DNA from: Natrinema sp. HArc-T2
GTDB taxonomy: Archaea > Halobacteriota > Halobacteria > Halobacteriales > Natrialbaceae
Assembly: GCF_041821085.1 (NCBI RefSeq)
Contig: NZ_JBGUAZ010000003.1
Span: 310,001 to 374,000 of the forward strand
Direction of reading: 5' to 3'
DNA: 64,000 nt
In this document: positions 20,805 to 42,030 of the stretch, one piece after another
Layout of the letters: each line of letters begins with the position of its first letter
Numbering within the stretch: position 1 is the first letter of the stretch
Program-made: the position numbers and the translations under genes
Notes under the pieces: model-generated
Told to the model about the DNA's origin: nothing
What the model saw: the letters and a program-made list of their open reading frames with translations, nothing else
Database searches by the model: none

Positions 20805-22112
20805 ATGTCATCGATCATCATCGACGAGCTATCAGCCCACGACGACCGCCTCGAGTGTTCGGTCCGCACCTCGACCGACCTCGAGCGGTTTTTCACCGAC
20901 GAACCGTTTCGCACCAGCTACGACGTGCCGATCGGGGACGTCCCTGACGGCGTGCTCGCTATCCCGGTGCTCGCACAGGTCTGTCCGGTCGCGTGGGCCA
21001 ACGGGGCCGACGTCTACGTCGACGAGGTCGACGCAACGTTCGCCCGCGCACTCGAGGACGTGCAAGCGTCGCTCTGTGAGATGTACGACTTCCTCGAGGG
21101 CGGGACGCTCTATGCGCGGCGAACGATCGAGCCAGACCCCGAACCGGGCGACGAGAGCGGCCTGTTGTTTACCGGCGGCGTCGACTCGACGTGTTCGTAC
21201 GTCCGCCATCGTGAGGAGTCGCCGACGCTGATCAGCATCAGGGGGTGGACGATCACGCCGGACGCAGCCGACGACAAAAAGTGGGGCGCCCTCCGCGAGC
21301 GCGTCTCGCGGTTCGCCGCCGACCACGATTGTGAGACCGCCTTTGTCGAGTCGAACATGCTCTCATTTCTCGACCATCCCATGCTGTTGGCCCACTACAA
21401 ACGCTACGTCGATGGGGGCTGGTACAGCTCCGTCGGGCACGGGCTGGGACTGTTGGGCCTCTGTGCACCGATGGCCTATGCGCGCGGGATGACCGACCTC
21501 TACGTCGCCGCGACTCACTGGGAGGGCATCGACCTCGAGTGGGGCTCGCGTCCTGACATCGACGAACACGTCCGCTGGACCGGCACGGTCTGTCACCACG
21601 ACGCCTACGAACTCACCCGCCAGGAACGCCTCGACGTCATCGCCGACTACGTCCGCAGCGAGGACCCGGATCTCCAGTTGCAGACCTGTAACAACCGAAT
21701 GGACGGCAACTGCGGCGAATGCGAGAAGTGTTATCGCACCGCCGTTGGGCTCCGTCTCTCCGGGCTCGAGCCGACGGCCCACGGCTATTCGTTCTCGGAT
21801 GCGGAGTACCACGATCTCCGGCGGGCCCTCGAGCGCGGCGACTGGGTGCTCGGTCAGGACGAACGCCACATGTGGGCCGACATTCGCGAGCGCGCACGCG
21901 AAACAGAACCTATGTCACCGACCGAACGGACCTTCTTCGAGTGGCTCGAGACCGTCGATTTAGACGAGCTGGTCTCGTCGTCCGAACCGCCGTTGACACA
22001 TCGACTCTTCTGGATCGGTGCGAGAAACACCCCGAACAGCGTCTACAGTACGATGTATCCGGCGTGGCGGACGGCAAAAGCCGGCCTACAGATCGTTCGA
22101 TCCGATCGATAG
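20805..22112 (+). CDS. PP-loop ATP-pyrophosphatase-like enzyme with C-terminal cysteine cluster
   Basis: A 435-residue protein of the adenine nucleotide alpha-hydrolase superfamily. The ATP-binding loop FTGGVDSTCSY is at about residues 120-130. A metal-binding-like cluster CNNRMDGNCGECEKCYRT lies near 288-305; QueC-type enzymes have a similar CxxCxxC arrangement. The N-terminal 100 residues and the C-terminal 100 residues are not recognised. In a glycan locus it may activate a carboxylate on a sugar or amino-acid substituent, but the substrate is unknown. It lies between a GT-C-like gene and a phosphodiesterase, divergent from the first and convergent with the second (17-nt gap). Confidence 0.75.
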   Translation: MSSIIIDELSAHDDRLECSVRTSTDLERFFTDEPFRTSYDVPIGDVPDGVLAIPVLAQVCPVAWANGADVYVDEVDATFARALEDVQASLCEMYDFLEGGTLYARRTIEPDPEPGDESGLLFTGGVDSTCSYVRHREESPTLISIRGWTITPDAADDKKWGALRERVSRFAADHDCETAFVESNMLSFLDHPMLLAHYKRYVDGGWYSSVGHGLGLLGLCAPMAYARGMTDLYVAATHWEGIDLEWGSRPDIDEHVRWTGTVCHHDAYELTRQERLDVIADYVRSEDPDLQLQTCNNRMDGNCGECEKCYRTAVGLRLSGLEPTAHGYSFSDAEYHDLRRALERGDWVLGQDERHMWADIRERARETEPMSPTERTFFEWLETVDLDELVSSSEPPLTHRLFWIGARNTPNSVYSTMYPAWRTAKAGLQIVRSDR

Positions 22113-22129
22113 GCACCTCACTTCGACTG

Positions 22130-23746
22130 TCACTCGAGATAGCCGAGATCAGCGAGTCGTTTTTCGACGCCCTCGTCTGCCGTCTCGACCGAGCGCGCCT
22201 CCTCTAGCCGTGGATACTGGCGCGTTCTGGTCGACGCGACACACGGCAAGGGATCGCCGTCCATCCGTTCGTCGAACGGAATCCCGAGCGTCGAGAGGAC
22301 AGTTGGCGCGATATCGAATAGCTGGGCATCCCCAACGCCGGCGGCGTGATCGATATCGTCGCCGTACGCTGCGACCGTTCCCTCGAGCTTGTGGTTCCAG
22401 GGCTCGCTCGGCGGGCCGAACTGTTCGTCTCGCAACGTCGCCGAGATGAAGTGCTGGAAGTCCGCCGGGACGGTGACGATGTCGACGGCATGATCGCTCT
22501 CGGGGCCGTGGAAGTACTCTTCTCGAGGCCGAACTGCCTCGAAGACGGCATCGCCGTCGGGCGTCGTGACCCCTCGTAAGGCGTCGATGATGTCGGCTCT
22601 CACTGTCTCGTATTCCGCCGGCGGGACGACGCCGTCTGGTTCTCGGCCCTCGAGATTGATCCGAACTCCGAGTTCGATCCGCGAGCGAACGTAGGCACTC
22701 GATGCGCGGAAATCGACCTGCGTTGCCCCTGCGCTGACGACCCCGGCCGGGGCGTACGCCGCAACGCGGTCATCGAGGCCGAGGCGCTCGAGGATGGCAC
22801 CGAGCCGCTGGCTCGTCAGCCCGACCCTCGCGGCGGCAGCCATCGCCCGTTCGGCGATCCCGGGCTCGTATTCCGTGGCGTCCTCCCCTGCTTTGAGATT
22901 ATCGTCACGAACAGTCGCCCACGTTGGCATTCCTTTTCCGCCGCGTTCGGTCTCGACGAACCCTGCCTCGCGGAGGTACTCGTTGACCCGGAGCTCGTGG
23001 CCGTCGTACGGTCCCATCCCGTGATCGCTGGCGACGATTACGTTCGCCGGCTCGTGGGTCTCGAGGATCTCGGTGAGCTGTCGATCGACCTCACGGTAGA
23101 TGGCGCGGATCGCCGCGTCGTCGTCGGGTCGCTTGTGGAAGATCGAATCGGTCGCCTGGAACTCGACGAACCCGAATTCGGGATCGAACTGGTCGGCGAG
23201 ATACCGAAACGCTTCGCCTCGCATGCGCACGCAATCACTATATCTAGTACTGAGATCGGCAGTATCGTCGTCGTCAGGATAGACCCGATACTCCCCGATC
23301 GCATCTCGAACGTCCTCGAGCACGCCGTCAGGATGACAGTCCGGATCCTCCGGCGCGGTGTAGCCCGGTATCAGTGCGCCGTCGAACGCCCGTGGCGGAT
23401 ACGTGACTGGGACGTTGACGACCACGCTCGTCACACCGTGACGATCGAGCAGTTCCCAGAGGGTTCGCTCGCGAACGTCGGTCGCGTTGACGACGTCCCA
23501 GTCGTAGCCATCGAACGAGAGAAAGCCGTAGACGCCGTGTTTGCCGGGGTTCATCCCCGTATACAGCGATGGCCACGCCGAGGCTGTCCAGGGCGGAATC
23601 TGCGACTCGAGCGGGCCGCTCGTTCCGTTTCGATAGATCGACTTGAGGGTGGGTACCTCGTTGTCTTCGAACAGCGGTGCCAGTACCCGATCACAGGCAG
23701 CATCGATGCCGACGAGGAGGGTTTGGAGGGAAGATCCGTCGTCCAT
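22130..23746 (-). CDS. Type I phosphodiesterase / alkaline phosphatase family protein 2
   Basis: A 538-residue hydrolase. Motifs: LLVGIDAACDRVLAPLF at the start (metal Asp), PPWTASAWPSLYTG (Thr nucleophile region, about 50-63), ASDHGMGPYDGHELRVNEYLREAG (about 240-262), and a C-terminal ADLGYLE tail shared in form with the other phosphatase-fold proteins here. It is closely similar to the partial protein at 1-793. Starts at ATG 23746 rather than GTG 23761: a promoter block (TCATAACGAAGG) lies 32 nt upstream. No signal peptide is seen, so it may act in the cytoplasm or as a membrane-associated enzyme. Palindromic copy C lies upstream beyond the promoter but belongs to the 3' side of the next gene. 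Confidence 0.85.
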   Translation of the reverse strand: MDDGSSLQTLLVGIDAACDRVLAPLFEDNEVPTLKSIYRNGTSGPLESQIPPWTASAWPSLYTGMNPGKHGVYGFLSFDGYDWDVVNATDVRERTLWELLDRHGVTSVVVNVPVTYPPRAFDGALIPGYTAPEDPDCHPDGVLEDVRDAIGEYRVYPDDDDTADLSTRYSDCVRMRGEAFRYLADQFDPEFGFVEFQATDSIFHKRPDDDAAIRAIYREVDRQLTEILETHEPANVIVASDHGMGPYDGHELRVNEYLREAGFVETERGGKGMPTWATVRDDNLKAGEDATEYEPGIAERAMAAAARVGLTSQRLGAILERLGLDDRVAAYAPAGVVSAGATQVDFRASSAYVRSRIELGVRINLEGREPDGVVPPAEYETVRADIIDALRGVTTPDGDAVFEAVRPREEYFHGPESDHAVDIVTVPADFQHFISATLRDEQFGPPSEPWNHKLEGTVAAYGDDIDHAAGVGDAQLFDIAPTVLSTLGIPFDERMDGDPLPCVASTRTRQYPRLEEARSVETADEGVEKRLADLGYLE

Positions 23747-23768
23747 CGTCGACTTATCCACCCCGATA

Positions 23769-23782
23769 CCCCTTCGTTATGA
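23769..23782 (-). promoter_or_regulatory. ATAACAAAGC-type promoter block before phosphodiesterase 2
   Basis: The minus strand reads TCATAACGAAGGGG, centred 32 nt before the ATG at 23746. Confidence 0.5.
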
Positions 23783-23910
23783 GCCCGATTATCCCTAAGA
23801 AAAGACTGTGTTCGGATCCGAACTCGAGCGGCGGCCACGGTCAGGTGCTGCTGTGTCCTTGTCACCCGAAGTAACGACCATGTCAGCGGTCTCGTGGTTG
23901 TGCTGTTCGA

Positions 23911-23991
23911 CGGTCTCATACGGTCCCCTGTCAGTCAGCTCCGCTGCACCCGCGATCGTCCTGCGGGTGCACCGGGACATCGGGACAGCAG
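23911..23991 (-). repeat. Palindromic 3' element, copy C
   Basis: The clearest stem of the five: TGCACCCGC (23945-23953) pairs with GCGGGTGCA (23963-23971) around loop GATCGTCCT (23954-23962). It begins with CGGTCTCATACGG and ends ACATCGGGACAGCA. It lies 6 nt after the stop of the FemAB-like gene at 23998. Confidence 0.8.
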
Positions 23992-23997
23992 ACCGCA

Positions 23998-25008
23998 TCA
24001 CTTCACGCTGTCGTACAGCGACGCGATCGTTTGCATCCCCCACGTGCCGGTCTCGAGGCTGTAATACGTCCGCAGCCCGGGGTTGAACTTCGCCTTATAC
24101 CGGTTGATCCGGCGCGTATCAGCACCGACGAGGTCGTACGTCTCGAGTCCGCGCTCGAGTCCGTCTTGCATGATCGCCCAGTCGAGCAGGTCGTTGGTCG
24201 GTACGTCGACGTCGGCGTCGGTCCGGACGCCACCCATCCACCGGCCCGTGGTGTCACCGTACTCGAGAGCCAAGATGCCGCCGATGAACTCGCCGTCGAC
24301 GCGGAGTGTGTACGGTCGGACGTAGCCGTTGGGCGAGTGCTCGGCGAGGTCGAGGACGAACTCGACCGGCACACCAAAGCTGATTCCTTGCGACTCGTAC
24401 CGGTTTTTAACTTGTTCGTGGATCAGGCGGCGTTCCTCGGGGCCGCCGACCGTAATCTCGTAGGCGTCGTCGTCGGTGTTTCGGATGTTACTCCGCGCAT
24501 CGCTGCTAAAGCTCATCAGCAGGTCGTCTTCGTCTCTCGTGAGGTCGACTATGTACGTGTACTCCGGCGTCACGTCGTACTCTTGCCACTTGAACGGACG
24601 TGCGTCCTCGAAGGCCGTCGCGGTGCGAACGTGGCTGTACTTCGGATTCAGCTCGGTCTCGATCCACTCGAAGCAGCCATCCATGAACCGCTGTCGTCGC
24701 CGTTCGCGCTTTCGCTGCTTCAGTTTCCCCATGTTCAGAAACGCCGGTCCGAGATACGGCACGCGGAGATGTGGCGGCGGCGAGAACGCCGTCGTCACGA
24801 ACTGTTTTCTGATCTCGAAGACGGGAAAGAGTCCGACCGGTTCCTGTCCCTTGAACCCGATCAGCGGGTGCACCGTCGCGCCGGCATGGTCGGCCTGGAC
24901 CCGTAGCGCCTCGAGTTCGTGACAGAGCGTTCCATGTGGGGATCGCTCGACGTATCCGTTCCACCGGTCTAAATCGTCGTCCGTCGCGACCCGGATGTCG
25001 ATGCTCAT
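23998..25008 (-). CDS. FemAB/GNAT-fold acyl- or aminoacyltransferase-like protein 1
   Basis: A 336-residue protein with the double-GNAT layout of FemAB-related enzymes. It has HELEALRVQ near residue 25, FSPPPHLRVPYLGPAFLN, EYTYIVDLTRDEDDLLMSFSSDARSNIRN (about 140-170), and a C-terminal TYDLVGADTRRINRYKAKFNPGLRTYYS. The paralogue at 40980 shares the same blocks (FTYIIDL, YKAKFNSDLRQYY). Bacterial relatives add amino acids or acyl groups to cell-wall precursors; a comparable modification of a surface glycan is inferred. The start at 25008 (MSIDIRV) is chosen, with a 20-residue ORF overlapping it upstream. Confidence 0.75.
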   Translation of the reverse strand: MSIDIRVATDDDLDRWNGYVERSPHGTLCHELEALRVQADHAGATVHPLIGFKGQEPVGLFPVFEIRKQFVTTAFSPPPHLRVPYLGPAFLNMGKLKQRKRERRRQRFMDGCFEWIETELNPKYSHVRTATAFEDARPFKWQEYDVTPEYTYIVDLTRDEDDLLMSFSSDARSNIRNTDDDAYEITVGGPEERRLIHEQVKNRYESQGISFGVPVEFVLDLAEHSPNGYVRPYTLRVDGEFIGGILALEYGDTTGRWMGGVRTDADVDVPTNDLLDWAIMQDGLERGLETYDLVGADTRRINRYKAKFNPGLRTYYSLETGTWGMQTIASLYDSVK

Positions 25009-25067
25009 CGGCGTGATCCCTCGCCCTCGGTTGGCTGACGTGGGTGTCCGGTCACAGCGCAGTCCAT
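25005..25067 (-). CDS. Possible 20-residue leader ORF coupled to FemAB-like gene 1
   Basis: An ATG at 25067 opens a 20-codon frame whose TGA overlaps the ATG of the FemAB-like gene as ATGA. Its ATG is about 31 nt from the promoter block at 25088-25101, so on a leaderless transcript it would be read first. Confidence 0.35.
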   Translation of the reverse strand: MDCAVTGHPRQPTEGEGSRR

Positions 25068-25087
25068 AGGCATCGACTCGCCATAGA

Positions 25088-25101
25088 GGCACTTTGTAAG
25101 C
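25088..25101 (-). promoter_or_regulatory. TTACAAAG-type promoter block before FemAB-like gene 1
   Basis: The minus strand reads GCTTACAAAGTGCC, 31 nt before the leader ORF and 90 nt before the main ATG. Confidence 0.4.
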
Positions 25102-25262
25102 AACTTGTTTCCACTCTCGTCAGTATTCGATTCTGACCGGTCTGCTCGCTCGTGGGTGCCACGATCGCTGTTGCCGGAGTTACGCTGCTCTTACTCGTGG
25201 AGACTCGAAGGGCAGCCAGCACAGCACTTTTTTGTCGGATCCGGTGCGGTACACCACAGCAC

Positions 25263-25847: not shown

Positions 25848-25965
25848 GCATCTGCACACGCCGCTGCTGCTATTGGTAATGGAGATGATACGCGACCGTT
25901 CGGACTCGTTATCTAACAAGTAACAATGGCTAGGGGTAGCGAGCGACCGATAACTACCAAGTACA

Positions 25966-27252: not shown

Positions 27253-27316
27253 GACCGTCAGATCGGCGATTATCAGTTGTCGTTGTCCACCGATCCTTAG
27301 CTGATAGTGGCTCTGA

Positions 27317-27823: not shown

Positions 27824-27892
27824 TACTGCAGCCGGTCTTGCATTTCACCTCCGAAAGACGGTGATACTCGAGATTCGCAGCCGGCAACCGTC

Positions 27893-27905
27893 GCATAACA
27901 AAACG
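27893..27905 (+). promoter_or_regulatory. ATAACAAAGC-type promoter block before GT4 gene 1
   Basis: Reads GCATAACAAAACG, centred 34 nt before the ATG at 27931. Confidence 0.5.
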
Positions 27906-27930
27906 TCTCGTTCAGAACTGTGATCATAGT

Positions 27931-29318: not shown

Positions 29319-29399
29319 GTCTCATACGGTTTACTGTCACTGGTTACCGGTGTACCCGCGACCGTCCTGCGGGTGCACTGGCGCTGACTGCCAGCAAAC
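29319..29399 (-). repeat. Palindromic 3' element, copy D
   Basis: Stem TGTACCCGC (29351-29359) and GCGGGTGCA (29369-29377), with one G-T pair relative to copy C, around loop GACCGTCCT (29360-29368). It ends 4 nt from the stop of beta-helix gene 4. Confidence 0.8.
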
Positions 29400-29403: not shown

Positions 29404-31629
29404 TCAGTTGATGCGCCGGGGATCGACGACGACGCCGTTGACGGAAATGGTCGGGCCGTCCTCGATCTCGAGAGCGGCTAACTCCCCGGTAAACCGGAAG
29501 CCGTCGACGCCACCGCGAACGAAGCCTTCGAGCGTGCTGTCGTCGACGAACTCGCCGCCAGTGCCGTACTCCGAGAGGGCTTCGCTACGCTCGATCTCGC
29601 CATCGACCTCGATCCGGTAGTTCGACACTTCCGAGCTCCCTTCGCCGTCGATCACGAGCGTGCTCTTCGCCCACGTGGGGGTTTCGGAGCCGTATTCGTC
29701 GGGGTCGACGACCTGCCCGTCGACCGCGACGGTCGGGCCCTCCTCGACCTCGAGCGCCGTCAGCTCCCCGGTAAACCGGAAGCCGTCGACGCCGCCACGA
29801 ACGAAGCCTTCGAGCGTGCTGTCGTCGACGAACTCGCCGCCAGTGCCGTACTCCGAGAGTTCCTCGCTGCGTTCGATCTCGCCATCGACCTCGATGCGAT
29901 AGTTCGATTTTTCCGAACTCCCCTCGCCATCGAGTGTCAGCGTTTTCCACTCCTCGCCGTCGCCACTCCCGACCACTTCGACGGTGCGAGTGTCCGAACC
30001 GTCGGAAGTCTCGACGGTCACCGAGAGTTCGGCTGGAGCGTCGACCGGTTCCGTTTCGTAGCTGAGCGTCGTCGTTTCCGTTCCGTCGGGACCGATCGTC
30101 ACCGAGGTCGATACTACCTCTTGTGAATCGGGGCCAGCAAGCAGAACGATGTCTCGTTCGACCGTCGATCCGCCGGTGTTCTCGAGTGAGACAGCTACCT
30201 CGAGCTCTTCACCGCCAGTGACGGGAGCGTTTGTCCCGTCGATCGAGATGGTTACGTGGGCGTCCGGCTCGGTGGTATCGTCGTTTCCTCCGTCACCGGT
30301 CAGGTCCGGATTGGGGTAGGAATGGGCCCGATCCCAGTCGAAGGCCGTATCACTGTAGTCCGGGGAGACGGACCCTGAACTCAGGCCGTCGTTGACGCCG
30401 ACGTTTGTCGTATCGTAGCTCCCGCCGGACGTACCCACGGTCGCTCCTGAATCGTTCGACGTGTGGAACGAAACGTTGTTTAGCTGGGCTCGTCCGGAAC
30501 TGTGCCACGCGAACGCCGGAATGTGTGGGACGTCAAGGAGGAACTGACAATCAGTAAAGTCGACCCATTCGTTCTCAAGGAACCGGATCACACCGGAGGC
30601 GTTTGGAGCATCGCTGAAGATAAACGAGCAGTTTTCGACGTATCCGCCGTTCGATGCCTGACTTCGGTTGTCCGCCATGATCGCTGAGACGTTCGTTTGG
30701 CGCTCGTTGTTGCTGTGGGTCGATCCGTCCAGAGAGAGATCGGTGTAGAACGTACAGTCGCGGATAACCTCGTTCTTGCCACCCAACCGGACGCTAGTCG
30801 GACTGTTGTTAGCAAAGACGCAGTTTTCGATCACCATCGGTCCTCGCATGCGGGTGTAGACCGCATTGTTCGGGAAGCCTGCGAGAACTGAGTTGCGGAT
30901 AGACAGTTTTCCGGCGCGAGAGCACCAGACACCGACACGTCCGTTTCCGCCGTTGTAGTTCGAAACGTCGCCATTGTTCTGACAAACGATTCCGTCCATC
31001 TCGAGGTGGCCACTCGACGACTCTGCCCCGACGCGGAACGCATATGTGTGTTGATCCCACGTAGTGGGGCCGTCGCAGGCGATTTCGATGTCCCGAATCG
31101 TGGCGACGTTGTTGACGATACAGCGAAAGCCCACGCCCGGTCTGCCGTCCGAATCGAACGTGAGGTTGTCCAGAAGGACATTGTCGCCCGACACGTTTAG
31201 CACGTCCTCGCCCTGTCCGTGCCGACCCCAGTCACTGGGGACCATGATCGTAACGTCGCCGTCGCCTCGGATCCCCCAGTTGGTCCGAGAGAATGAGAGC
31301 TGTCTGTTCCACTCGTAGGTCCCGCTGGGAACCACGAGTAACTCGCCGTCGCTCGAGTTCGCGACGTGTGAGGCGAGATCATCGCCGTCGGTCACGTCCA
31401 AAACCCGCTCCGTCATCTGACTCGGATCTGCAGCTTCGGGAGCTGATCGGGCGTCGGTCGCTGCTGCGGCACTGGACAGGGGATTGATCGCCGCCACACT
31501 CGCAGCGACGCCGGTCAGCTTGAGGTACGATCGCCGATCCAGTAATCTATTATTACTCCCTATTTCGCCGCTCTCAGCGGTCTTCTTGACGCTCTCGTCT
31601 GCATCCAATACTGTATTGTCGCGTGCCAT
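29404..31629 (-). CDS. Tat-exported parallel beta-helix protein 4, with CARDB-like and two C-terminal modules
   Basis: The largest paralogue, 741 residues from the ATG at 31629 (MARDNTVL, matching the starts of paralogues 1 and 2). Tat signal LDRRSYLKLTGVAASVAAI is at about 29-48. The beta-helix (about 85-420) includes GYVENCSFIFSDAPNASGVIRFLEN and ENCVFANNSPTSVRLGG. After GDGGNDDTTEPDA comes a CARDB-like domain (VTISIDGTNAPVTGGEELEVAVSLENTG) and two nearly identical modules of about 90 residues (SNYRIEVDGEIERSE, GFVRGGVDGFRFTGEL). Its opening region differs from the DYEVIEARGQT start of the others and has TERVLDVTDGDDLASHVANS, pectate-lyase-like. Surface polysaccharide binding or cleavage is inferred. 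Confidence 0.85.
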   Translation of the reverse strand: MARDNTVLDADESVKKTAESGEIGSNNRLLDRRSYLKLTGVAASVAAINPLSSAAAATDARSAPEAADPSQMTERVLDVTDGDDLASHVANSSDGELLVVPSGTYEWNRQLSFSRTNWGIRGDGDVTIMVPSDWGRHGQGEDVLNVSGDNVLLDNLTFDSDGRPGVGFRCIVNNVATIRDIEIACDGPTTWDQHTYAFRVGAESSSGHLEMDGIVCQNNGDVSNYNGGNGRVGVWCSRAGKLSIRNSVLAGFPNNAVYTRMRGPMVIENCVFANNSPTSVRLGGKNEVIRDCTFYTDLSLDGSTHSNNERQTNVSAIMADNRSQASNGGYVENCSFIFSDAPNASGVIRFLENEWVDFTDCQFLLDVPHIPAFAWHSSGRAQLNNVSFHTSNDSGATVGTSGGSYDTTNVGVNDGLSSGSVSPDYSDTAFDWDRAHSYPNPDLTGDGGNDDTTEPDAHVTISIDGTNAPVTGGEELEVAVSLENTGGSTVERDIVLLAGPDSQEVVSTSVTIGPDGTETTTLSYETEPVDAPAELSVTVETSDGSDTRTVEVVGSGDGEEWKTLTLDGEGSSEKSNYRIEVDGEIERSEELSEYGTGGEFVDDSTLEGFVRGGVDGFRFTGELTALEVEEGPTVAVDGQVVDPDEYGSETPTWAKSTLVIDGEGSSEVSNYRIEVDGEIERSEALSEYGTGGEFVDDSTLEGFVRGGVDGFRFTGELAALEIEDGPTISVNGVVVDPRRIN
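29450..29943 (-). repeat. Tandem 282-bp direct repeat inside beta-helix gene 4
   Basis: The two C-terminal module-coding units (29450-29661 and 29732-29943) are offset by 282 bp (94 codons) and nearly identical, with GAACGAAGCCTTCGAGCGTG and CTCGCCGCCAGTGCCGTACT in both. This looks like a recent in-gene duplication or gene conversion. Confidence 0.85.
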
Positions 31630-31654
31630 GCGATCTGGAAAAGATATCATAACA

Positions 31655-33549: not shown

Positions 33550-35022
33550 TCAATTCGAAGAGATCGCGTTTCGTATTAGGGTGGCGTCGATAGCTCCAAG
33601 ACTGAACAACAGGACGATCCAGATTGAGACGCTGAGGAGAACGACTGCGACGAGAGAAACCACTCCGGTTATATATGGTGAGAACAGCCAGATCGAGATC
33701 GTCATGCCGCCGGTGACGACCCCCACTTTCGAGAGGTCGGACAGCAACCGTTCCACGTTTAGTGGTAATTCCTTGTACACGATATAGACCTTTACTAAAA
33801 CGTAAAAGGTGTGCGTGATGGCCGTCGCGATCGCCGCGCCAACGACACCAATTACTGGGATCAACAGGACGTTCAGTCCGACGTTCAGCAGTGATGCGGT
33901 GATCTTGGCGATCGCTCTCTCTCTCGCTCGTCCGAGGTAGTCCAGTGGGTTGTCGGTGAGTTTCGTAATGGCTTGCAACACGACGTAAACTGAGAGGATC
34001 TGGAGGACGGGAACGGCACCCGAGTACTCGGCTCCGAAGACTAGCTCGATAGTTGGCGACGCGACGAAGATAATCCCGACTGCTGCAGGAACGTATAGTA
34101 ACAGGACGTGTTTCAGCGATTCTTCGTACATTGTCGCTGCGGTGTCTAGTCCACCGGTGTTTTTCTGTTTGCTGTAGGTCGGCGAAATAGAGAAACCGAG
34201 AGCGGTTGCCGGTACCTGTAGGAACTCGACGATCTGCTTGCTCAGAACGTAAAAACTGACTGCGAGCGGATTAAGGAAGAAGCCGACGAGGATCGTGTCG
34301 ATCTCTTTGTCTATTTTGCCGGACATGCTCGTCACGGTGAGCGGAACGTTGTACTCCAGTATTCGTCGCGGTATTTCCGAATCGATAGCTGACGCCTTTG
34401 GCATGTTGCTGTACTGGTTTTTGTATACTGTGTAGCCGCCTACGAGAGCGGCCAGACACGAGCCGGTGATGAATCCACCCAGTGCCCCGAGCGCACCGTA
34501 CCCGAGACCAACGAGCGCGAGGGCAAACAGGAGACGGCCACTCCTATCGACGGCATGAATCGTTGCTGCGAGGCCGATATCCTCCAGACCCTGGGCGATC
34601 ATGCGGAAGTACGTGGTGAGCGTAGCGACCGCGATGAATGCGAAGCCGAACGCGAGAAGCGGAGCGAGTTCGGGTTCACCGACTGCGCTCGCTATGACGT
34701 CCGAGCCGAGCAAGAACGTGATCGAAACGATCACGATGGACACGCCGTTGTACAGGAATGATCGTTCGATTATGTATGGTATCTGACTAGGGTCCGTCAC
34801 TCGATAATCGGCGACATATCGAGCAGCAGATTTCGCTAGCCCTAGCTTGCTGAATATTTGAGCAACCGAGAAAACGGACATGGCGAGGAACAACACCCCG
34901 TATTCGTCCGGTTTCAGAAGCCGAGCCAGCATCACCATCATGATCGCACTCGAGACAGTCGCGACCACCCTGCCCGCGAATTCAGTCTTAAACCGGGAAC
35001 TGAGACGTGCAGCTAGACTCAT
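33550..35022 (-). CDS. Polysaccharide flippase, MATE/MOP superfamily (Wzx-like)
   Basis: A 490-residue membrane protein with 12-14 hydrophobic helices. N-terminal LSSRFKTEFAGRVVATVSSAIMMVMLARLLKPDEYGVLFLAM and SVAQIFSKLGLAKSAARYVADYR are typical for the oligosaccharide flippase family. SKLGLxKSAARY and PLDYLGRARERAIAKITASLLNVGLNVLLIP are further family blocks. It moves a lipid-linked glycan unit across the membrane. Start is 4 nt from the 3' end of the upstream GT-C-like gene at 35027, so the two are an operon. Confidence 0.88.
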   Translation of the reverse strand: MSLAARLSSRFKTEFAGRVVATVSSAIMMVMLARLLKPDEYGVLFLAMSVFSVAQIFSKLGLAKSAARYVADYRVTDPSQIPYIIERSFLYNGVSIVIVSITFLLGSDVIASAVGEPELAPLLAFGFAFIAVATLTTYFRMIAQGLEDIGLAATIHAVDRSGRLLFALALVGLGYGALGALGGFITGSCLAALVGGYTVYKNQYSNMPKASAIDSEIPRRILEYNVPLTVTSMSGKIDKEIDTILVGFFLNPLAVSFYVLSKQIVEFLQVPATALGFSISPTYSKQKNTGGLDTAATMYEESLKHVLLLYVPAAVGIIFVASPTIELVFGAEYSGAVPVLQILSVYVVLQAITKLTDNPLDYLGRARERAIAKITASLLNVGLNVLLIPVIGVVGAAIATAITHTFYVLVKVYIVYKELPLNVERLLSDLSKVGVVTGGMTISIWLFSPYITGVVSLVAVVLLSVSIWIVLLFSLGAIDATLIRNAISSN

Positions 35023-35026
35023 ATGC

Positions 35027-36862
35027 TCACTCGGGTGCTTCGTTGGTCACGAGGTACTGCCTGAATTCGCCGTTCGACTGTACTCGAGCGATGCCGCGCT
35101 GGGTCTGCAGGGAGGAGAGTTCAGTTCGGCTATACCGGAGTCCCTGGTAGGCGAGCAGTTCTCTCTGGTAGTCAGTAGTCGTGAGAACGGCGTAGCGATC
35201 CGACTCGTACTGTAACGACCCGTCAAGATCGGATTCCGTTACCGTCCCGTGGTGATGTGACCGATTCTCGTTACCGTATATTGCATCGTCGTATCGATTC
35301 GGCGCATCTCGAAGCCCGACGAACCCTATCCCATCGGCTTGCGTGTCAAACGCCGTTTCGTATCCCTGCATCTCCTGTTCTGTCACGTGCTGCGATTGGT
35401 TGTAGATGTACGGTGACGGGAAGACGGCGATCAAGGAGAGTACGAGCAAAAGCGAGAGTCCGACTGCCAGTACGGGAGTAACGGTTCCCGAACCAACGTA
35501 TTGCGCGAACCAGTTGGTACCGAGATGGAATGCAGTCGCGCCGAGAACGGTGACGAACACCATCATGAGCCCGAACACGCGGAAGTACATCTCCGACGTC
35601 TCACTGACGAGGTACATGACGAAGACGACGGAGAGTCCAATCAATCCCACCGCAAAGAGAATCGCTACCGCGGTCACGCTGGGTAGCTCTGGCGACGTGC
35701 GACGGAACACGGTATACAGGATCAGACCACCCGCGAGCAGTGAAAAGATGACTTGGGCAGCGAAGATTTTCAGGAAGATCCCTTCAATACTGCCACCGAT
35801 AGCTGCTAGTGACGCCCCCTGCGTCGAGATAGACTCGCCAGCAGAGCCGTGACCACCCACGAGATACATCGCCGCCGAGATGATCGCATCACGGACGAAA
35901 TCGGAGAAGAACCCGTAGTTCGCCGACCAAATAAAGAACATACCGATCAGAAGCATCGTCTGTCCGTACAGTGGTCGCGTTTCGACGATCGCCGTCGAAC
36001 CGCCGCCCACACGAGCGACGATGAACCTCACGATACAGATTCCGGCAAAGACGATAATCATGTGAGCGACGAATTGCGGATGATAGATGACGGCCCCCAT
36101 CGAAACGAGTGCGAGGGTAGTGCCGATCGCAGTGATCGACCGCCGCTCGCGGTTGAGCGCCGCACGGGACGCATCACGGTTCGGAACGAGATATTTCAGC
36201 AGTACGTAGACGAACAGCCCGGCATAGAGGATTGCGACCGACATCGCGTGAGGGTGCAAGTGTGTTGAGAGTGTGGTAATCGGCAAGAGGAGAAAACCCG
36301 AAAATGCCGCGACGACGATCGCTGATGGAGACGGGACGATCGTCCTGACACAGAGCGGAACGAACACGAAGAACACGACCGCGGCGAGAACGACGACGAG
36401 TAGCAGTGACTGACGGAGCGAAACCCCAATGCTCGAGTGAACGATCACCGAGAGCGTATGCATGGCCGGATAGAACAGCTCGAGCGGCGAGAGCGCACCG
36501 TCGCGGATCGCGCTTGCCCACCCGAGGTGGGTCAGCGAATCGTTCTGACCATAGAAGTAATAGCCGCGGATGATCGGCAGTCCGACGAACGCGACCATCG
36601 AAAGTCCGCCGAGTCCGAGTGCGGTGGTTCTGGTGGCCCGATCCGTCGCCGCCATCGAGGCTACTGCGACGGAGAGAGCGCTGGCCATCCCGGCGATCAA
36701 CCCAATCCAGACCACCCGTGGCGTCATAGCGTACAGCGATACCTCGTACCCCGTCGCCGGGTTCGCGCGTGCGACGAGTACGGCGCTGGCGATGGAGAGA
36801 AATCCGAGGGCCAGCAGCCCCCGTCGATAGCTGTCGGTTCTACTTGTCGACTGTCGTGACAT
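35027..36862 (-). CDS. Multispanning GT-C-like membrane protein 2
   Basis: A 611-residue paralogue of the protein at 18608, with the same length, helix pattern and motifs: VLVARANPATGYE near residue 27, GQNDSLTHLGWASAIRDG, FYPAMHTLSVIVH, and SQHVTEQEMQGYETAFDT near 470. The ATG at 36862 (MSRQSTSR) is chosen; GTG 36871 and ATG 36895 are alternatives. It sits in an operon with the flippase, so a polymerase or glycosyltransferase for the flipped unit is plausible. A nearby promoter block (36892-36904) is about 38 nt upstream. Confidence 0.75.
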   Translation of the reverse strand: MSRQSTSRTDSYRRGLLALGFLSIASAVLVARANPATGYEVSLYAMTPRVVWIGLIAGMASALSVAVASMAATDRATRTTALGLGGLSMVAFVGLPIIRGYYFYGQNDSLTHLGWASAIRDGALSPLELFYPAMHTLSVIVHSSIGVSLRQSLLLVVVLAAVVFFVFVPLCVRTIVPSPSAIVVAAFSGFLLLPITTLSTHLHPHAMSVAILYAGLFVYVLLKYLVPNRDASRAALNRERRSITAIGTTLALVSMGAVIYHPQFVAHMIIVFAGICIVRFIVARVGGGSTAIVETRPLYGQTMLLIGMFFIWSANYGFFSDFVRDAIISAAMYLVGGHGSAGESISTQGASLAAIGGSIEGIFLKIFAAQVIFSLLAGGLILYTVFRRTSPELPSVTAVAILFAVGLIGLSVVFVMYLVSETSEMYFRVFGLMMVFVTVLGATAFHLGTNWFAQYVGSGTVTPVLAVGLSLLLVLSLIAVFPSPYIYNQSQHVTEQEMQGYETAFDTQADGIGFVGLRDAPNRYDDAIYGNENRSHHHGTVTESDLDGSLQYESDRYAVLTTTDYQRELLAYQGLRYSRTELSSLQTQRGIARVQSNGEFRQYLVTNEAPE

Positions 36863-36891
36863 TTGGTTCACTTTCAGGAGTGTTTCATCAT

Positions 36892-36904
36892 CCAATTGTT
36901 ATCC
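36892..36904 (-). promoter_or_regulatory. ATAAC-type promoter block before GT-C-like protein 2
   Basis: The minus strand reads GGATAACAATTGG, 38 nt before ATG 36862 and 29 nt before GTG 36871. Confidence 0.4.
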
Positions 36905-36982
36905 ATCGCTTGGGACTGGGTAGGTCCGTTCTACGTCCCTGAACGAGATCCAGTCAAACCGAGAGTAGCGCGCGTGAGTTCG

Positions 36983-37975
36983 CTAGTCAGATCTCGGATC
37001 TGCGGGTCCCTCTCCATTGCAGATGCGCGTATGGGCCCCGATGAGTGCATCTTGCAGGTTCAGTTCGGTGAGAGTCGTCTCCCGATCGATAATCGACGAC
37101 CTGATCTCGCAGTCACGGATCGTCGTGTTCGGGAAGACGACCGAGTGCTCAAGGCGCGTATCGATCACCGCTGCGTCGGCCATGACCTGGACGTTCTCCT
37201 CGAGCGTTGCTCCCTCCACAGTCGCACTCTCGGCGACGTGCGTTCGACCGTCAAGGGACCACGCCAATGCATCCAGGTAACTCTCGGGTGTCCCGATGTC
37301 GAACCAGGCGTCGTCGAAGGTGAACGCAAAGGCGTCTTCGCGTTCCTGCAGCCACTTGACGAACCAGCCGGGTTCGTCGGGATTGTTCCCCGCCTCGAGA
37401 TACGTCTCCAGCTGATCGAGCGTTTCGGCTGGGAACCCGTAACAAGCGATCGAGACGAGGGTACTATTCGGGGTCTGGGGTTTCTCCTGAAAGTCGGTCA
37501 CGCGCTCGCCCGCCAGTTCGACGACGCCATAGGACGACGCTCGCTCGACGGTTTCCACGTCGTAGGCCGCGATGCAGGGTGCGGCGGCACGTTGGAAGAA
37601 GTCGACGAACTCGCCCACGTCGAAACTGAGCAGGTTGTCTCCTGCGATCACCACGGTGTCCTCGTCGATCGCCTCTCGGTCGACCAGTTGTGCCAGAGCA
37701 CCGACGACGCCGAGTTTCTGGGTCTCGGCAGTCGTCTCCTCGACCGTCAGCGTCAGCTTCTCGAACCGGCTGTCGGCGATGTACTCGCGGAAGTGACCCG
37801 CGAACTTCTGGTTCGTACTGACGAACACCTCGTCGATCCGATCGTCCGCCTCGAGTTGGGTGAAGATCCGGTCAATGACGGTTGCGTCGCCGATCGGAAG
37901 GAACATCTTCGGGCGATGCCTCGTGATCGGCCATAATCGCGTCGCATACCCGCCTGCGAGAACGATTGCCTTCAT
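36983..37975 (-). CDS. Sugar-1-phosphate nucleotidyltransferase with left-handed beta-helix tail
   Basis: A 330-residue enzyme that makes a nucleotide sugar from a sugar-1-phosphate and NTP. KAIVLAGGYATRLWPIT plus RPKMFLPIGD is the nucleotide and Mg-binding signature; DTVVIAGDNLLSF holds the catalytic Asp; FQEKPQTP is the sugar-binding block. Residues about 245-320 are hexapeptide-like repeats. Substrate not readable. It follows the GT-C-like gene at a 120-nt gap with its own promoter. Confidence 0.85.
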   Translation of the reverse strand: MKAIVLAGGYATRLWPITRHRPKMFLPIGDATVIDRIFTQLEADDRIDEVFVSTNQKFAGHFREYIADSRFEKLTLTVEETTAETQKLGVVGALAQLVDREAIDEDTVVIAGDNLLSFDVGEFVDFFQRAAAPCIAAYDVETVERASSYGVVELAGERVTDFQEKPQTPNSTLVSIACYGFPAETLDQLETYLEAGNNPDEPGWFVKWLQEREDAFAFTFDDAWFDIGTPESYLDALAWSLDGRTHVAESATVEGATLEENVQVMADAAVIDTRLEHSVVFPNTTIRDCEIRSSIIDRETTLTELNLQDALIGAHTRICNGEGPADPRSD

Positions 37976-38338
37976 AGATCTGTTTTGTAGTACCTGAAAA
38001 TAAGGTATAGTTATGACTCTGATAACGATCCATCGGGTCGTCTGGGAGGCAAGGTGGTGATGAGGGGGGAGATCGTTCGACAGGGTAACGTGGATATCGT
38101 GGGCTCGAGACGTGTGAGTTACTTTTCATACGCTGCCACGTATGCGGCAGTCAACCGAACGGCGGAAAGCCGTCTCTTCGCCGGTCGGATCGGCATGGAC
38201 GGGCGATCGAAACAAGCACATAACCAAGACCGTGTTACACGAATTGTAACCGTTCGCAGCTAAATAGCCCTTACAGTCCCTCTGGAGTGATTTCAGTGAA
38301 CTTGCGGTACCTGAGGGACGCTGACCCGGAGAAAACCG
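37976..38338. other. Divergent intergenic region between nucleotidyltransferase and beta-propeller genes
   Basis: A 363-nt region. A minus-strand ATAAC block (GTCATAACTATACC, about 38004-38017) is 37 nt before the ATG at 37975; a plus-strand TATA-like TAAATAGC lies near 38262, about 75 nt before 38339. No small ORF was supported. Confidence 0.4.
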
Positions 38339-39469
38339 ATGCGACTACATGGATGCTACGACGGGACGCTGTACGGGACGCGGTATCGCACAGTCTTCCG
38401 AGAGTCGTCGACCGAGAGTGGGTCGTTCAGTGCGGTCGGGAGGCTTCCTGTACCCGACTCAGCCACGGGAGCGACTGGACTCTCATACCGTCTCAAGACG
38501 ACGAAGGGCTGGAAATCGGCGGTCACTCGAGTTGTCGGTCGGTTCCCGTCGGCCAACCTCTGGCCGATAACCGACACGGACCTGCTCGCAACTGCTGACA
38601 ATTATGTGTTCGTCTCGCGAGACGGTGGCGAAACGTGGACAGTGAGTCTCACGCTTCCCGAGTCCTCGAGCCCGATGGGGGTCCTGCCAACGGGTGTGTG
38701 TATTCACGACGACACGATCTATCTCGGAGAATATCCGCTTGCATCCTCGACGACACCGCGGGTACTTCGATCGACCGATCGGGGCGCGACGTGGGATCCT
38801 ATCGCCGAACTCGACGGGGTCCGTCACGTCCATTCGATTCAGGTTGATCCTTATACCGGCGACCTCTGGATGACGACAGGCGACGCGGATTCGGAGTGTC
38901 GGATCGGACGACTCTCCGACGGTGACTTCAAGACCGTCGGTAGCGGTGGTCAAACGTGGCGAGCAGTCGAACTCGCGTTTACTCCCGACGCGATCATCTG
39001 GGGCGTGGATAGTATCTATCTGGAGACGAATCCTATCTTACGACTCGATCGGTCGAATCTTGACGGGGGCCGATCGCCGGACATCCTCTACGAGGCGTCG
39101 AACTCGATTTATTATGCGACGTCTGTTTCGATCGACTCAGTGCAGTGGGTCGTCGTTTCGACGGCGATGGAGGCCGGTACGGATAGCACTGGTCCCGCCG
39201 ATCAGGCCGTCCATTCAGATCGAGCGAAGGTTCTCGCGTCGTCGGCAGCGACTGGTTTCACGACATGGCACGAACTCGCCACTTACGAGAAGCGATCGAT
39301 GCTCGTTGACTACTGGAACCCACGGAATCTCGCACCGACCGCCAATGCCTACGTCTTTCTGGCGGCGGATCCAGATAGAGGTATTGTTACGAACCCTTAC
39401 AACACGTCGCGAAACGACGGCGAACTCGTTTCGTACCCACCCGAGTACGTCGCCGATCTCGAGTCGTAA
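38339..39469 (+). CDS. BNR/Asp-box beta-propeller protein (sialidase-like fold)
   Basis: A 376-residue protein with repeated Asp-box motifs: SRDGGETWTVSLTLP (about 100-114), STDRGATWDPIAEL (about 143-156) and DPYTGDLWMTTG. Such motifs cap blades of sialidase-like beta-propellers, often carbohydrate-binding. No signal peptide or membrane segment is visible, so the protein may remain in the cytoplasm or be exported unconventionally. The TGA at 38288 is in frame upstream, so start at or after 38291; ATG 38339 fits. It is convergent with the sulfatase-like gene (22-nt gap) and stands in the second glycan locus. Confidence 0.75.
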   Translation: MRLHGCYDGTLYGTRYRTVFRESSTESGSFSAVGRLPVPDSATGATGLSYRLKTTKGWKSAVTRVVGRFPSANLWPITDTDLLATADNYVFVSRDGGETWTVSLTLPESSSPMGVLPTGVCIHDDTIYLGEYPLASSTTPRVLRSTDRGATWDPIAELDGVRHVHSIQVDPYTGDLWMTTGDADSECRIGRLSDGDFKTVGSGGQTWRAVELAFTPDAIIWGVDSIYLETNPILRLDRSNLDGGRSPDILYEASNSIYYATSVSIDSVQWVVVSTAMEAGTDSTGPADQAVHSDRAKVLASSAATGFTTWHELATYEKRSMLVDYWNPRNLAPTANAYVFLAADPDRGIVTNPYNTSRNDGELVSYPPEYVADLES

Positions 39470-39491
39470 CCGCACTGCCGGGGCATTCCGT

Positions 39492-40850
39492 TTAGAGATA
39501 GCCGAGATCCTTGAGTTGTGCTTGAACGTCAGAGTTGATCCTTCGTTGGCGTGATTCCGTGCTTTCCTCTTGATTGAACGCTTGCACTCGATCAGAGAGG
39601 GTTTCACGGCATTGATTGAGGACGGCTTCAGCTGGATCGGATACCAACTTGTCTGTCGCCCGATCAAATAGATACTCCGAACTCGAGTCGTTTCGGACGT
39701 ACTTGTACTCGGGATCGGCAACGATTCGCCACCGAGTGATGTCGGCAGGCGTCTTGCGTCCGGCGTGTGGGATGAAGTCCTCAGCCATCGCTACGTCACG
39801 AGTGTATCGTCCCGACCGGCCGCCACCGTCACGGACAAGCGTAAATAGATCGGGCAGTTCGAACATGTCGTCGACGGTCTCGCCGTCGCGCTGGCCGGGC
39901 CGTTTGATCCACAGCGGCACGTTGAGGTTGATATCGCGGACGTAATGGGGCGGTCGTTCTGTCCGCGGATAGTCACCGAGCGTCTTCCCGTGATCGGAAC
40001 AGACGACGACGAGCATGTCGTCGAACAGCCCCTCGCGCTGTAACAGCCCGAGCAGTTCCGCGACCTTCTCGTCCTGGTAACGCGCGCTCGCGTCGTAGTA
40101 CTCCATGACACGCCGTTGCGTCTCTGGTGCGAGATCGGATTTCCCCATCACATACGCGAGCAGTTTCGTGTTGAGAACGCGCGGTTCGATGGTCGACGGC
40201 TGCTCGAGGTCGAGCGACTTGAAGGCCCGTTTCGGCGGGAAGTATGGACTGTGGGCCTCCATGAGGTTCAGGAAGGTAAACGTTGGTGCCGACGGCTCGG
40301 CCTGCTGGGTTAGCCAGCGTTTCGCCCGGCTGACGAGACTGTCGGTGAAAAAGCGCCGCTTCAACAGGAACACCGGCTGGCGGGCTGCTTTGCCGAGAGC
40401 AGGATGCAGCCGGGAGTAGAGGTCGTCGCGGGTCGTGTGGACGCCATCGGTTTCCGACCGCGATATCTCGAGGTCCCACTCGACGAACTCGTCGAAGCCA
40501 CGATCGAGGCCGGAGAGCTGACCGACCCACGGATTGTTCGAGAAACCGGCAGTGCGGTAGCCCGCATCCGAGAGGTGTTCGGCGAGCGTCGTCCGGGATT
40601 CGGGGAGCCGGCTCATGCCGTCGGAAAAGCCATTCGTCACCCCGTGTTCGGACGGGAACACGCCAGTGAACATCGACGTGTGAGAGGGCAGCGTCCAGGG
40701 GGCCGGTGTGAACGCGTTCTCGTATCGCGTCGCGTACGTCGACAGCGCCGACAGAGTAGGGGTCGTCTCGCGGTCGTGATCGTAGGCAGAGACGCGATCC
40801 TTGCGCAGCGAATCGAGTACCAGGAACAATACGTCCGGTTTGTTCGACAT
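39492..40850 (-). CDS. Sulfatase-fold protein without the formylglycine site
   Basis: A 452-residue member of the sulfatase branch of the alkaline phosphatase superfamily. PDVLFLVLDSLRKDRVS has the metal Asp pair, PAPWTLPSHTSMFTGVFPSEHGV is the nucleophile region, VVCSDHGKTLGDYPR the metal ligands near 290, and it ends KDLGYL. In active sulfatases this segment reads C/S-x-P-S-R; here it is T-L-P-S-H, so no formylglycine can form, and it is probably a phosphatase, phosphodiesterase or transferase. A TGTAACAAAG promoter block lies 30 nt upstream of the ATG. Confidence 0.8.
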   Translation of the reverse strand: MSNKPDVLFLVLDSLRKDRVSAYDHDRETTPTLSALSTYATRYENAFTPAPWTLPSHTSMFTGVFPSEHGVTNGFSDGMSRLPESRTTLAEHLSDAGYRTAGFSNNPWVGQLSGLDRGFDEFVEWDLEISRSETDGVHTTRDDLYSRLHPALGKAARQPVFLLKRRFFTDSLVSRAKRWLTQQAEPSAPTFTFLNLMEAHSPYFPPKRAFKSLDLEQPSTIEPRVLNTKLLAYVMGKSDLAPETQRRVMEYYDASARYQDEKVAELLGLLQREGLFDDMLVVVCSDHGKTLGDYPRTERPPHYVRDINLNVPLWIKRPGQRDGETVDDMFELPDLFTLVRDGGGRSGRYTRDVAMAEDFIPHAGRKTPADITRWRIVADPEYKYVRNDSSSEYLFDRATDKLVSDPAEAVLNQCRETLSDRVQAFNQEESTESRQRRINSDVQAQLKDLGYL

Positions 40851-40871
40851 ACCGCTACCTACGTGAAGACA

Positions 40872-40884
40872 GACTTTGTTACAG
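40872..40884 (-). promoter_or_regulatory. TAACAAAG promoter block before the sulfatase-like gene
   Basis: The minus strand reads CTGTAACAAAGTC, centred 30 nt before the ATG at 40850. Confidence 0.5.
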
Positions 40885-40979
40885 ACCTACTAACTCCCGT
40901 TCGAATGAACGGAGTTGCACACCGATTTTCGATTCGTCGGCTCTCGTCGCATCGACGTGGCAACAGCGTGCTCGAGGTG

Positions 40980-41993
40980 TTACTTGATGCTTGCGAGTGT
41001 CTGATAGGCTGACTTCGCAAGCGACATCTCGAGGCCCGCGGACTCGACGACGTAGTACTGGCGGAGATCGCTGTTGAACTTCGCCTTGTATTCACAGAGG
41101 CGCTCGGTGTTCGCACCGACGAGATCGTAGCCGGTCACTGACTCGAGTTGTGGATCGGTACAGATATCCTCGATTATTGCCCGGTGGAGGTGGCTGTTGA
41201 CGCTGATCCCGTCGTACGAGGCGGTAACGCCACCCTGCCAGAAGTACGCGAGATCCGGGGAGTAGAGAGTGATGACGCCGCTTTTGTAGTCTCCGTCGGG
41301 TGTTCGCGCGACGTAAACGCGCCAGCGGTCGTCATCGAGTGACGAGAGGAGATCCCGGAGGAACGACCGCGACAACGGGGCTGGATCGTCGTACTCCTGG
41401 TACTGGGCGACGACGTCCTCGTAGATTCGCATGGCCGCGTCGATCCCTTCCGTCTCGATCGAGAGATCGATCTCATCTTGCTTGCGCATTTCCCGCCGCA
41501 GGCTCTTGCTAAAGCGTTGTAAAACGTTCTCGAGGGTAGTGTCCTCGAGATCGATGATGTATGTGAACCGAGGCGTCAGCGATAGGTCCTGCCACTCGTA
41601 TGGCCGCGGATCTGTATACCCGATCGGACAGCTCATTCGGAACAGCGTTGTTCGCGTGTCGATGTCGACGGTCTCGATCACGGCCTCGGCCAACTGCTGG
41701 TTGATCCGCTCTTGCTTCCGGCGTTTCGGACTGTTTGGATCGATGACGGGCCCGAGTCGGGGAACGCTGAACGAGACTGGCGGAGAGAGAACCGTTCGAC
41801 CGATCGGTCGCTCGCTGACGAACACTGGGAGCAGTCCGACCGCCTGCTGACCCTTGTACGCGCCATATAGCTGTAACTCCGCGTCTGTGTGGTCATCGAG
41901 GACGGCGAGCGCGTCCGGGTCGTGGAACACTTCGTACCCATCGGCCGGCAGCGCCTCTCGCCAGGCCTCGAGTCCGATTCGATTGACGTCCAT
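40980..41993 (-). CDS. FemAB/GNAT-fold acyl- or aminoacyltransferase-like protein 2
   Basis: A 337-residue paralogue of the protein at 23998. It shares VLSPPVSFSVPRLGPVIDP, LTPRFTYIIDLEDTTLENVLQRFSKSLRREMRK (about 145-178) and YDLVGANTERLCEYKAKFNSDLRQYYVVE near the C-terminus. Likely transfers an amino-acid or acyl group to a sugar precursor; inference. Start at 41993 is supported by a promoter block (GAATAACAAGGGC) 32 nt upstream. It is separated from the sulfatase-like gene by about 130 nt. Confidence 0.75.
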   Translation of the reverse strand: MDVNRIGLEAWREALPADGYEVFHDPDALAVLDDHTDAELQLYGAYKGQQAVGLLPVFVSERPIGRTVLSPPVSFSVPRLGPVIDPNSPKRRKQERINQQLAEAVIETVDIDTRTTLFRMSCPIGYTDPRPYEWQDLSLTPRFTYIIDLEDTTLENVLQRFSKSLRREMRKQDEIDLSIETEGIDAAMRIYEDVVAQYQEYDDPAPLSRSFLRDLLSSLDDDRWRVYVARTPDGDYKSGVITLYSPDLAYFWQGGVTASYDGISVNSHLHRAIIEDICTDPQLESVTGYDLVGANTERLCEYKAKFNSDLRQYYVVESAGLEMSLAKSAYQTLASIK

Positions 41994-42016
41994 ACGCCTC
42001 TCCTGTTCCGACGACA

Positions 42017-42030
42017 GCCCTTGTTATTCT
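42017..42030 (-). promoter_or_regulatory. ATAACAAGG promoter block before FemAB-like gene 2
   Basis: The minus strand reads AGAATAACAAGGGC, centred 32 nt before the ATG at 41993. Confidence 0.5.

Follow-up and report, generated by a model that had tools for sequence, protein, structure and literature searches.

A 64,000-nucleotide stretch of the 3.73-Mb genome of the haloarchaeon Natrinema sp. HArc-T2 (G000:C3:310001-374000; hereafter the window, in which positions are counted from the first letter) encodes two FemABX-like proteins, P0002 and P0003, each beside an alkaline-phosphatase (AP)-superfamily gene, together with a PP-loop protein, P0001, and an AsnB-like protein, P0004 (Table 1; other genes are named by their first position). 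An earlier note on this DNA had placed two FemAB-like, a PP-loop and an AsnB-like gene in a surface-glycan region, and both points held. The four genes are real, as judged from the PF13480 matches of the FemAB-like proteins, the TGGVDST motif of P0001 and the PF13537 and PF00733 domains of P0004, and the region is a surface-glycan locus, in which profiles matched a Wzx-like flippase, glycosyltransferases, a nucleotide-sugar dehydrogenase and WecB, while WbpB-, WbpE- and WbpD-like genes were assigned from Pfam or sub-cut-off NCBIfam matches. A third FemAB-like paralogue lies 0.8 kb upstream of the window (G000:C3:308161-309168), with a helix-turn-helix gene and GlmM-like and GlmS-like genes as neighbours. 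The analysis below lends good support, in fold, catalytic residue and gene order, to FemABX-type chemistry in the glycan loci of archaea, with a putative donor and acceptor.

PF13480 was matched with E-values of 2.3e-18 by P0002, taken as its longer open reading frame, and 6e-20 by P0003; the two proteins are 32-33% identical. Because both reached the cut-off of PF13480 and stayed below that of PF02388 (FemAB), we label them FemABX-like rather than PF02388 FemAB proteins. The three paralogues of this genome have 72 invariant columns in common and the family has members in 95 of the 146 genomes searched from the order, which together exclude chance resemblance. Single-protein searches of the PDB gave no useful match.

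A structural model of P0002, built from a 61-sequence alignment (mean predicted local distance difference test score, pLDDT, 92.5), adopts a double-GNAT fold. By VIA-align the model aligned with Staphylococcus aureus FemX with Z 26.4 (root-mean-square deviation 3.5 A, 306 residues), FemA with Z 26.3 (3.4 A, 295 residues), Sbb17 with Z 24.8 (2.9 A, 277 residues) and Weissella FemX with Z 24.7 (3.5 A, 302 residues); FemX, FemA, Sbb17 and Sba18 together spanned Z 24.2-26.4 over 277-306 residues. Scores were 16.6-18.2 for the MprF family, 16.6 for an uncharacterised Bacteroides protein and at most 15.9 for tandem acyl-coenzyme A (CoA) GNATs. Foldseek ranked Sba18 with streptothrisamine first, and in a PDB search with the FemAB profile S. 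aureus FemX came first (2.4e-6), with five Weissella FemX sequences (about 1e-3) filling the next places. When hhalign aligned P0002 with a fragment of FemX (E 1.5e-5, probability 80), its Y304-K305 paired with F304-K305 of FemX, by a FemX numbering that was confirmed; Lys305 of FemX is the catalytic Lys according to the accessible text of PMC12945691. R172, G295, Y304 and K305 were invariant in all 89 FemAB-like sequences, so that the Lys with its preceding aromatic residue is kept throughout. The pattern of the CoA-binding motif A was found at its loop in 0 of the 89. In a wider region a GNAT motif A pattern did occur in 39 of 89, each time as RWQGGA in the strand before the loop, and the hits vanished (0/89) when the search was confined to the loop and helix start. 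The predicted fold and the aligned Lys favour aminoacyl-tRNA as the putative donor of these enzymes.

Gene order was compared in 80 FemAB loci of 70 haloarchaeal genomes, the loci being taken from the higher-scoring matches and therefore biased to the P0002 type, and in 40 further loci taken mainly from lower-scoring matches to sample the P0003 type; both sets include close relatives, so that counts are not independent events. A gene of the 22130 AP cluster, defined by single-linkage, was an immediate same-strand neighbour of FemAB at 70 of the 80 loci (upstream in 64, downstream in 15, on both sides in 9), most commonly with a 4-nt overlap, and three of the ten loci that had no adjoining AP gene carried one a single gene further away. 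Given the 14 stretches of the genome that match PF01663, we estimate the chance of such adjacency at under ~1%. Across the 146 genomes, 88 encoded both FemAB and AP, 7 FemAB only, 2 AP only and 49 neither, an association whose significance is inflated by kinship. T54, D200, H204, D241, H242 and H452 of the AP family were conserved in 78 or 79 of 79 sequences, T54, at the nucleophile position, in 78; this pattern would fit an active phosphodiesterase-type enzyme, with residue roles that we take to be those of the NPP family. The AP protein beside P0003, 39492 (PF00884), belongs to a different subfamily from 22130 (PF01663). A sulfatase role was rejected for both, the nucleophile being Thr and not the Cys or Ser of formylglycine-type enzymes.

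P0003-class FemABs often have a second kind of companion, a DUF2334-like protein of the 46512 family, in which the DUF2334 Pfam match is below cut-off and appears in 9 of 26 members. Among the 31 FemABs of this class in the 40 loci, 21 had a 46512-like gene within five genes. Pooled haloarchaeal loci, some from close relatives, held 17 adjacent pairs, always with the 46512-like gene upstream, and in the 82 genomes carrying such a gene a listed FemAB started within 20 kb of it in 72 and within 1.5 kb in 18. At two loci (L276 and L281) the order WbpD-WbpE-WbpB-WbpA-46512-FemAB was seen, with names given by similarity to genes of the window. A CE4 deacetylase call for 46512 was not made, given that its second metal His is variable and a profile search of the PDB returned chance-level matches only. 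Separately, 42171-43487, a protein whose only Pfam matches are sub-cut-off ones (toroid-like), had relatives within five genes of 13 of the 31 P0003-class FemABs.

Beyond these loci, 196 genomes of the phylum were searched and 48 encode FemAB; 32 of the 48 belong to other orders and are presumably mostly methanogens. From 16 of the 32 we took 18 stretches; open-reading-frame picking recovered FemAB in 16 of the 18 and missed it in two that do hold matches from the search of the phylum. At least two FemAB genes occurred in 11 of the 16 loci and at least two were consecutive by gene index in nine (L243, L245-L249, L251, L252 and L260), and one genome (G163) held 11 FemAB matches, five of them consecutive. 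A 46512-like gene adjoined FemAB in 7 of the 16, each time upstream and on the same strand.

Table 1 Features of the window (positions counted from its first letter)
Feature	Position	Strand	Remark
5' part of AP partner of the third FemAB paralogue	1..778	-	pair at G000:C3:308161-310778, mostly outside the window
AsnB-like protein P0004	8865..10691	+	PF13537 + PF00733; PP-loop intact, glutaminase Cys absent
Large membrane protein, read as Wzy-like	18608..20443	-	no family match; divergent neighbour of P0001
QueC-superfamily PP-loop protein P0001	20805..22112	+	TGGVDST motif, four invariant Cys, no Pfam match of its own
AP-superfamily partner (type I phosphodiesterase, PF01663) beside P0002	22130..23746	-	Thr at nucleophile position
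FemABX-like aminoacyltransferase P0002 (PF13480)	23998..25008	-	ATG at 25008 gives 336 aa; longer open reading frame to 25092 with GTG start
Wzx-like flippase	33550-35022	-	profile match
Second large membrane protein, read as Wzy-like	35027-36895	-	no family match; 34% identity to 18608
AP-superfamily protein, sulfatase family (PF00884), beside P0003	39492..40850	-	nucleophile position Thr (WTLPSH, by eye)
Second FemABX-like protein P0003, divergent class	40980..41993	-	337 aa, PF13480
DUF2334-like protein	46512..47438	-	~4.5 kb from P0003; homologues directly upstream of FemAB in many archaea
WecB-type UDP-GlcNAc 2-epimerase	47563..48618	-	profile match
Polysaccharide deacetylase (PF01522)	51181..52233	+	present in 35/48 named PP-loop loci
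WbpA-, WbpB-, WbpE-, WbpD-like genes	59163..63464	-	nucleotide-sugar dehydrogenase above cut-off; other three by Pfam or sub-cut-off NCBIfam matches

The PP-loop gene belongs to the core of the family: all 20 of its genomes that were searched carry it, against 28 of the 146 in the order as a whole. P0001 is 93-95% identical to its nearest proteins, from Natrinema hispanicum, Natrinema limicola and Haloterrigena sp. H1, which points to the Natrialbaceae. The PP-loop gene and the Wzy-like gene 18608 are divergent at 46 of 48 named loci; of the two exceptions, L138 and L142, the second is truncated at the edge of the stretch. The gene at 49434 lies within 10 kb of the PP-loop gene in 32 of the 48 loci, and 23998 is found in none of these 32; in 11 of the 48, 22130 and 23998 are present and 49434 is absent from within 10 kb. 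Because its flanking genes are near neighbours in those 32 loci, all without 23998, two core genes of this genome seem to enclose variable content in the interval 22130-48618. Outside the family, P0001 homologues have varied-looking neighbours, and at two loci of another family (L225 and L226, in genomes G103 and G059) a PP-loop homologue, a 46512-like gene and a P0003-type FemAB lie within ~5.5 kb. A PP-loop/FemAB synteny of ~20 kb involves, by tree and gene order, the upstream paralogue and not 40980.

The model of P0001 (pLDDT 91) matched QatC (Z 13.7, 4.8 A, 296 residues), QueC (Z 12), Cap9 (Z 10.4) and the nitrile synthetase ArtA (Z 10.1). Its loop reads [T/S]GG[V/I]D[S/A] against SGGxDS in QueC; it begins with Thr in 53 of 58 sequences and with Ser in the other 5. 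Four Cys (C295, C303, C306 and C309) are invariant in 58 of 58, with a first spacing of seven residues against the eight of the QueC zinc motif, C(x)8CxxCxxC, as given in the accessible part of PMC13329287. The Tyr of the QueC YPDC motif, which stacks on the deazaguanine according to the portion of PMC13279940 at hand, is replaced in the P0001 family by R in 46, H in 7, C in 3 and Q in 2 of the 58 sequences (residues 249-251, by eye). A PADLOC scan of P0001, the QatC profile included, found no family at E 0.01, and a qat or other defence role was dropped on that ground. P0001 is probably an ATP-dependent carboxylate-activating, amide-forming enzyme acting on a substrate other than that of QueC; uronate amidation would be a guess at its reaction. 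Small archaeal QueC-like clusters of undetermined role are on record in the same partial source (PMC13329287).

P0004 begins with MVGLTG and so lacks the Cys2 nucleophile of class II glutaminases, as found in Gln-dependent asparagine synthetases. In 30 homologous loci the PP-loop was kept in 30 and the N-terminal motif MCG in none, a pattern search having obtained the N-terminal motif in 13. The absence of the glutaminase Cys makes a simple Gln-dependent amidotransferase unlikely. The nearest NCBIfam families were asparagine synthase, amidotransferases and macrolactam or lasso cyclases. For P0001 and P0004 the probable role is that of separate, ATP-dependent ligases forming amides within the same glycan super-locus; a part in the FemAB reaction would be conjecture for either.

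Several other genes of the window were noted in passing. Four related proteins with Tat-like N-termini by eye (10982-12745, 13323-15131, 15640-16608 and 29404-31650) are perhaps right-handed beta-helix surface proteins; 15640 is present in 43 of the 48 named loci round the PP-loop gene. The DUF354-like glycan protein 43693-44859 is 51% identical over 355 residues to part of the 774-residue protein 55467-57791. A HerA-like ATPase is encoded at 2182-3879, where PADLOC matched HerA and mad8, and 17279-18103 is an open frame with a putative resemblance to IS200/IS605 OrfB/TnpB proteins.

On this basis we propose that P0002, P0003 and the third paralogue would be cytoplasmic double-GNAT enzymes of the FemABX type that transfer an amino acid (glycine being a guess) from aminoacyl-tRNA to an amino sugar, forming an amide with its free amine. 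This would happen on a nucleotide- or lipid-linked precursor, ahead of Wzx-type export and polymerisation. Exposing or preparing that amine may be the task of the DUF2334-like protein, and the AP enzyme may act on a phosphate-linked carrier or a phospho-substituent. We consider it somewhat probable that the FemAB-like proteins carry out such tRNA-dependent N-aminoacylation of a surface-glycan precursor, where donor, amino acid and acceptor are all inferred. A bolder form of the idea, which we offer tentatively and think doubtful, is that Halobacteriota possess a murein-like chemistry in which FemABX series, with a DUF2334-like or AP companion, would furnish the amino sugars of surface glycans with short peptide side chains or bridges in a tRNA-dependent manner, the N-glycyl-glucosamine of Halococcus being one product.

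A number of observations weigh against N-aminoacylation by these proteins. PF02388 gave 21.4 bits for P0002 and 20.4 bits for P0003, below its cut-off of 24; identity of P0002 to FemX is ~15%; and the seventh match of the FemAB profile in the PDB, at 0.0046, was the unrelated YkuI. K305 was matched to FemX Lys305 by sequence-profile alignment, not structural superposition, and the model is of P0002 only, P0003 being placed by homology within a divergent clade. A dedicated tRNA gene was not consistently found beside FemAB, any predicted tRNA occurring in 5 of 56 scanned loci. As for the partners, D15 of the AP family, its first metal Asp, falls below the >=97% conservation listing; in the 26 sequences of the 46512 family H121 is invariant and position 125 variable, so that the second His of HxxxH is not kept; and a 46512-like gene on the same strand directly adjoins 14 of the 31 P0003-class FemABs, short of a universal pairing. 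On the other side, 54 of the 80 haloarchaeal loci have amino-sugar or Wbp-type clusters at most six genes away from FemAB, which speaks for the proposal; this is a raw count, made on DegT, hexapeptide acetyltransferase, GlmM-like, GlmS-like, oxidoreductase and NDP-sugar dehydrogenase genes whose names are a reading of sequences and not profile matches. The roles of the AP and DUF2334-like partners are likewise inferred, and an amino-acid-bearing polymer in this organism would be a prediction from genes.

The same proteins might be acyl-CoA-dependent N- or O-acyltransferases of the broad PF13480 family that acetylate or acylate glycan sugars, with the likeness to FemX reflecting ancestry only. 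PF13480, named for a GNAT acetyltransferase domain, is indeed the family found above cut-off, and the weak NCBIfam match of P0002 (31 bits against a cut-off of 260) is to a PEP-CTERM-associated FemAB protein that is not a proven aminoacyltransferase. The Z gap of ~8 between tRNA-dependent FemABX proteins and acyl-CoA GNATs, the invariant position of the catalytic Lys and the absence of CoA motif A at its loop nevertheless make this alternative unlikely. We give still less credence to aminoacyl-tRNA-dependent enzymes that act, in the manner of Aat or MprF, on a protein N-terminus, the substrate of Aat, or on a lipid instead of a glycan. The lipid-aminoacylating MprF family is the next structural group after FemABX, but nucleotide-sugar, flippase, glycosyltransferase and Wbp-type neighbours recur both in haloarchaea and outside the order, and the closest structures belong to enzymes acting on a cell-wall precursor or an amino-sugar compound.

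In a reading drawn from the earlier note, the FemAB, PP-loop and AsnB-like proteins would form one pathway leading to an amide-decorated polymer of the glutaminylglycan type. All five Natronococcus genomes searched do encode FemAB, in one to three copies, PP-loop and FemAB genes lie within 25 kb of each other in 13 of 20 genomes of the family, and at 4 of the 80 loci AsnB-like, AP and FemAB genes form one operon, overlapping or a few bases apart. Against this, 23998 is near the PP-loop gene in only 11 of 48 loci; FemAB occurs in 95 of the 146 genomes and the PP-loop protein in 28, which implies that most FemABs work without it; and P0004 and its homologues lack the glutaminase Cys. We regard the joint pathway as very improbable, and a single module for all four enzymes was rejected on synteny. 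What survives of the suggested amino-acid-decorated polymer is FemABX-type enzymes in glycan loci, with a predicted fold and Lys that favour aminoacyl-tRNA.

Set against known systems, P0001 is like QueC, QatC and Cap9 in its PP-loop and its fold, carries a C(x)7CxxCxxC motif with one residue fewer in the first spacing than that of QueC, and differs from them in the replaced deazaguanine-stacking Tyr, in having no PADLOC match and in its glycan locus. P0004 shares Ntn-like and PP-loop synthetase domains with AsnB-like amide ligases that have no active glutaminase, such as the lasso cyclase and beta-lactam synthetase, in which that domain is dead; it stands apart in that all its NCBIfam matches are below cut-off. 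The archaeal FemABs have the double-GNAT fold (Z 24-26) and the aligned Phe/Tyr-Lys catalytic pair of FemX, FemA and FemB, and the tandem paralogues of some archaea recall the FemX-A-B series of murein synthesis. They depart from FemX, FemA and FemB in scoring with PF13480 and not PF02388 and in having an AP or DUF2334-like neighbour, and archaea have no murein. Searches of the open-access literature, which leaves most papers of subscription journals uncovered, showed no report of FemAB-type enzymes in archaea or in haloarchaeal glycans. The proteins described here are conserved candidate enzymes, with a testable donor, for the long-known amino acids of archaeal surface polymers; if the proposal is true, tRNA-dependent wall aminoacylation extends from bacterial murein to archaea.

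The closest structures to P0002 by Foldseek, Sba18 and Sbb17, have a counterpart in Orf11 of the BD-12 pathway, which according to the accessible text of PMC12945691 glycylates an amino-sugar compound from Gly-tRNA; all three differ from the archaeal FemABs in their setting, a Streptomyces antibiotic pathway with a small soluble acceptor. Among archaea, the available portion of PMC2952790 describes a Methanococcus N-glycan with threonine on a uronic acid, the attaching enzyme being unidentified in 2010, and in PMC9943897, on a haloarchaeal acidic exopolysaccharide, the word 'phosphodiesterase' does not occur, nor is a FemAB mentioned in its accessible text. Glutaminylglycan, the precedent put forward for this locus, is named for Natronococcus occultus in the part of PMC4187196 at hand. 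A closer precedent, and a known haloarchaeal wall with amino-acid substituents, stands in the same portion of that source, which reports glycine and N-glycyl-glucosaminyl bridges in the walls of Halococcus (PMC4187196) and does not mention an enzyme for them: although of a different genus, the Halococcus heteropolysaccharide is a polymer of the haloarchaeal surface whose amino sugar bears an amino acid, as proposed here.

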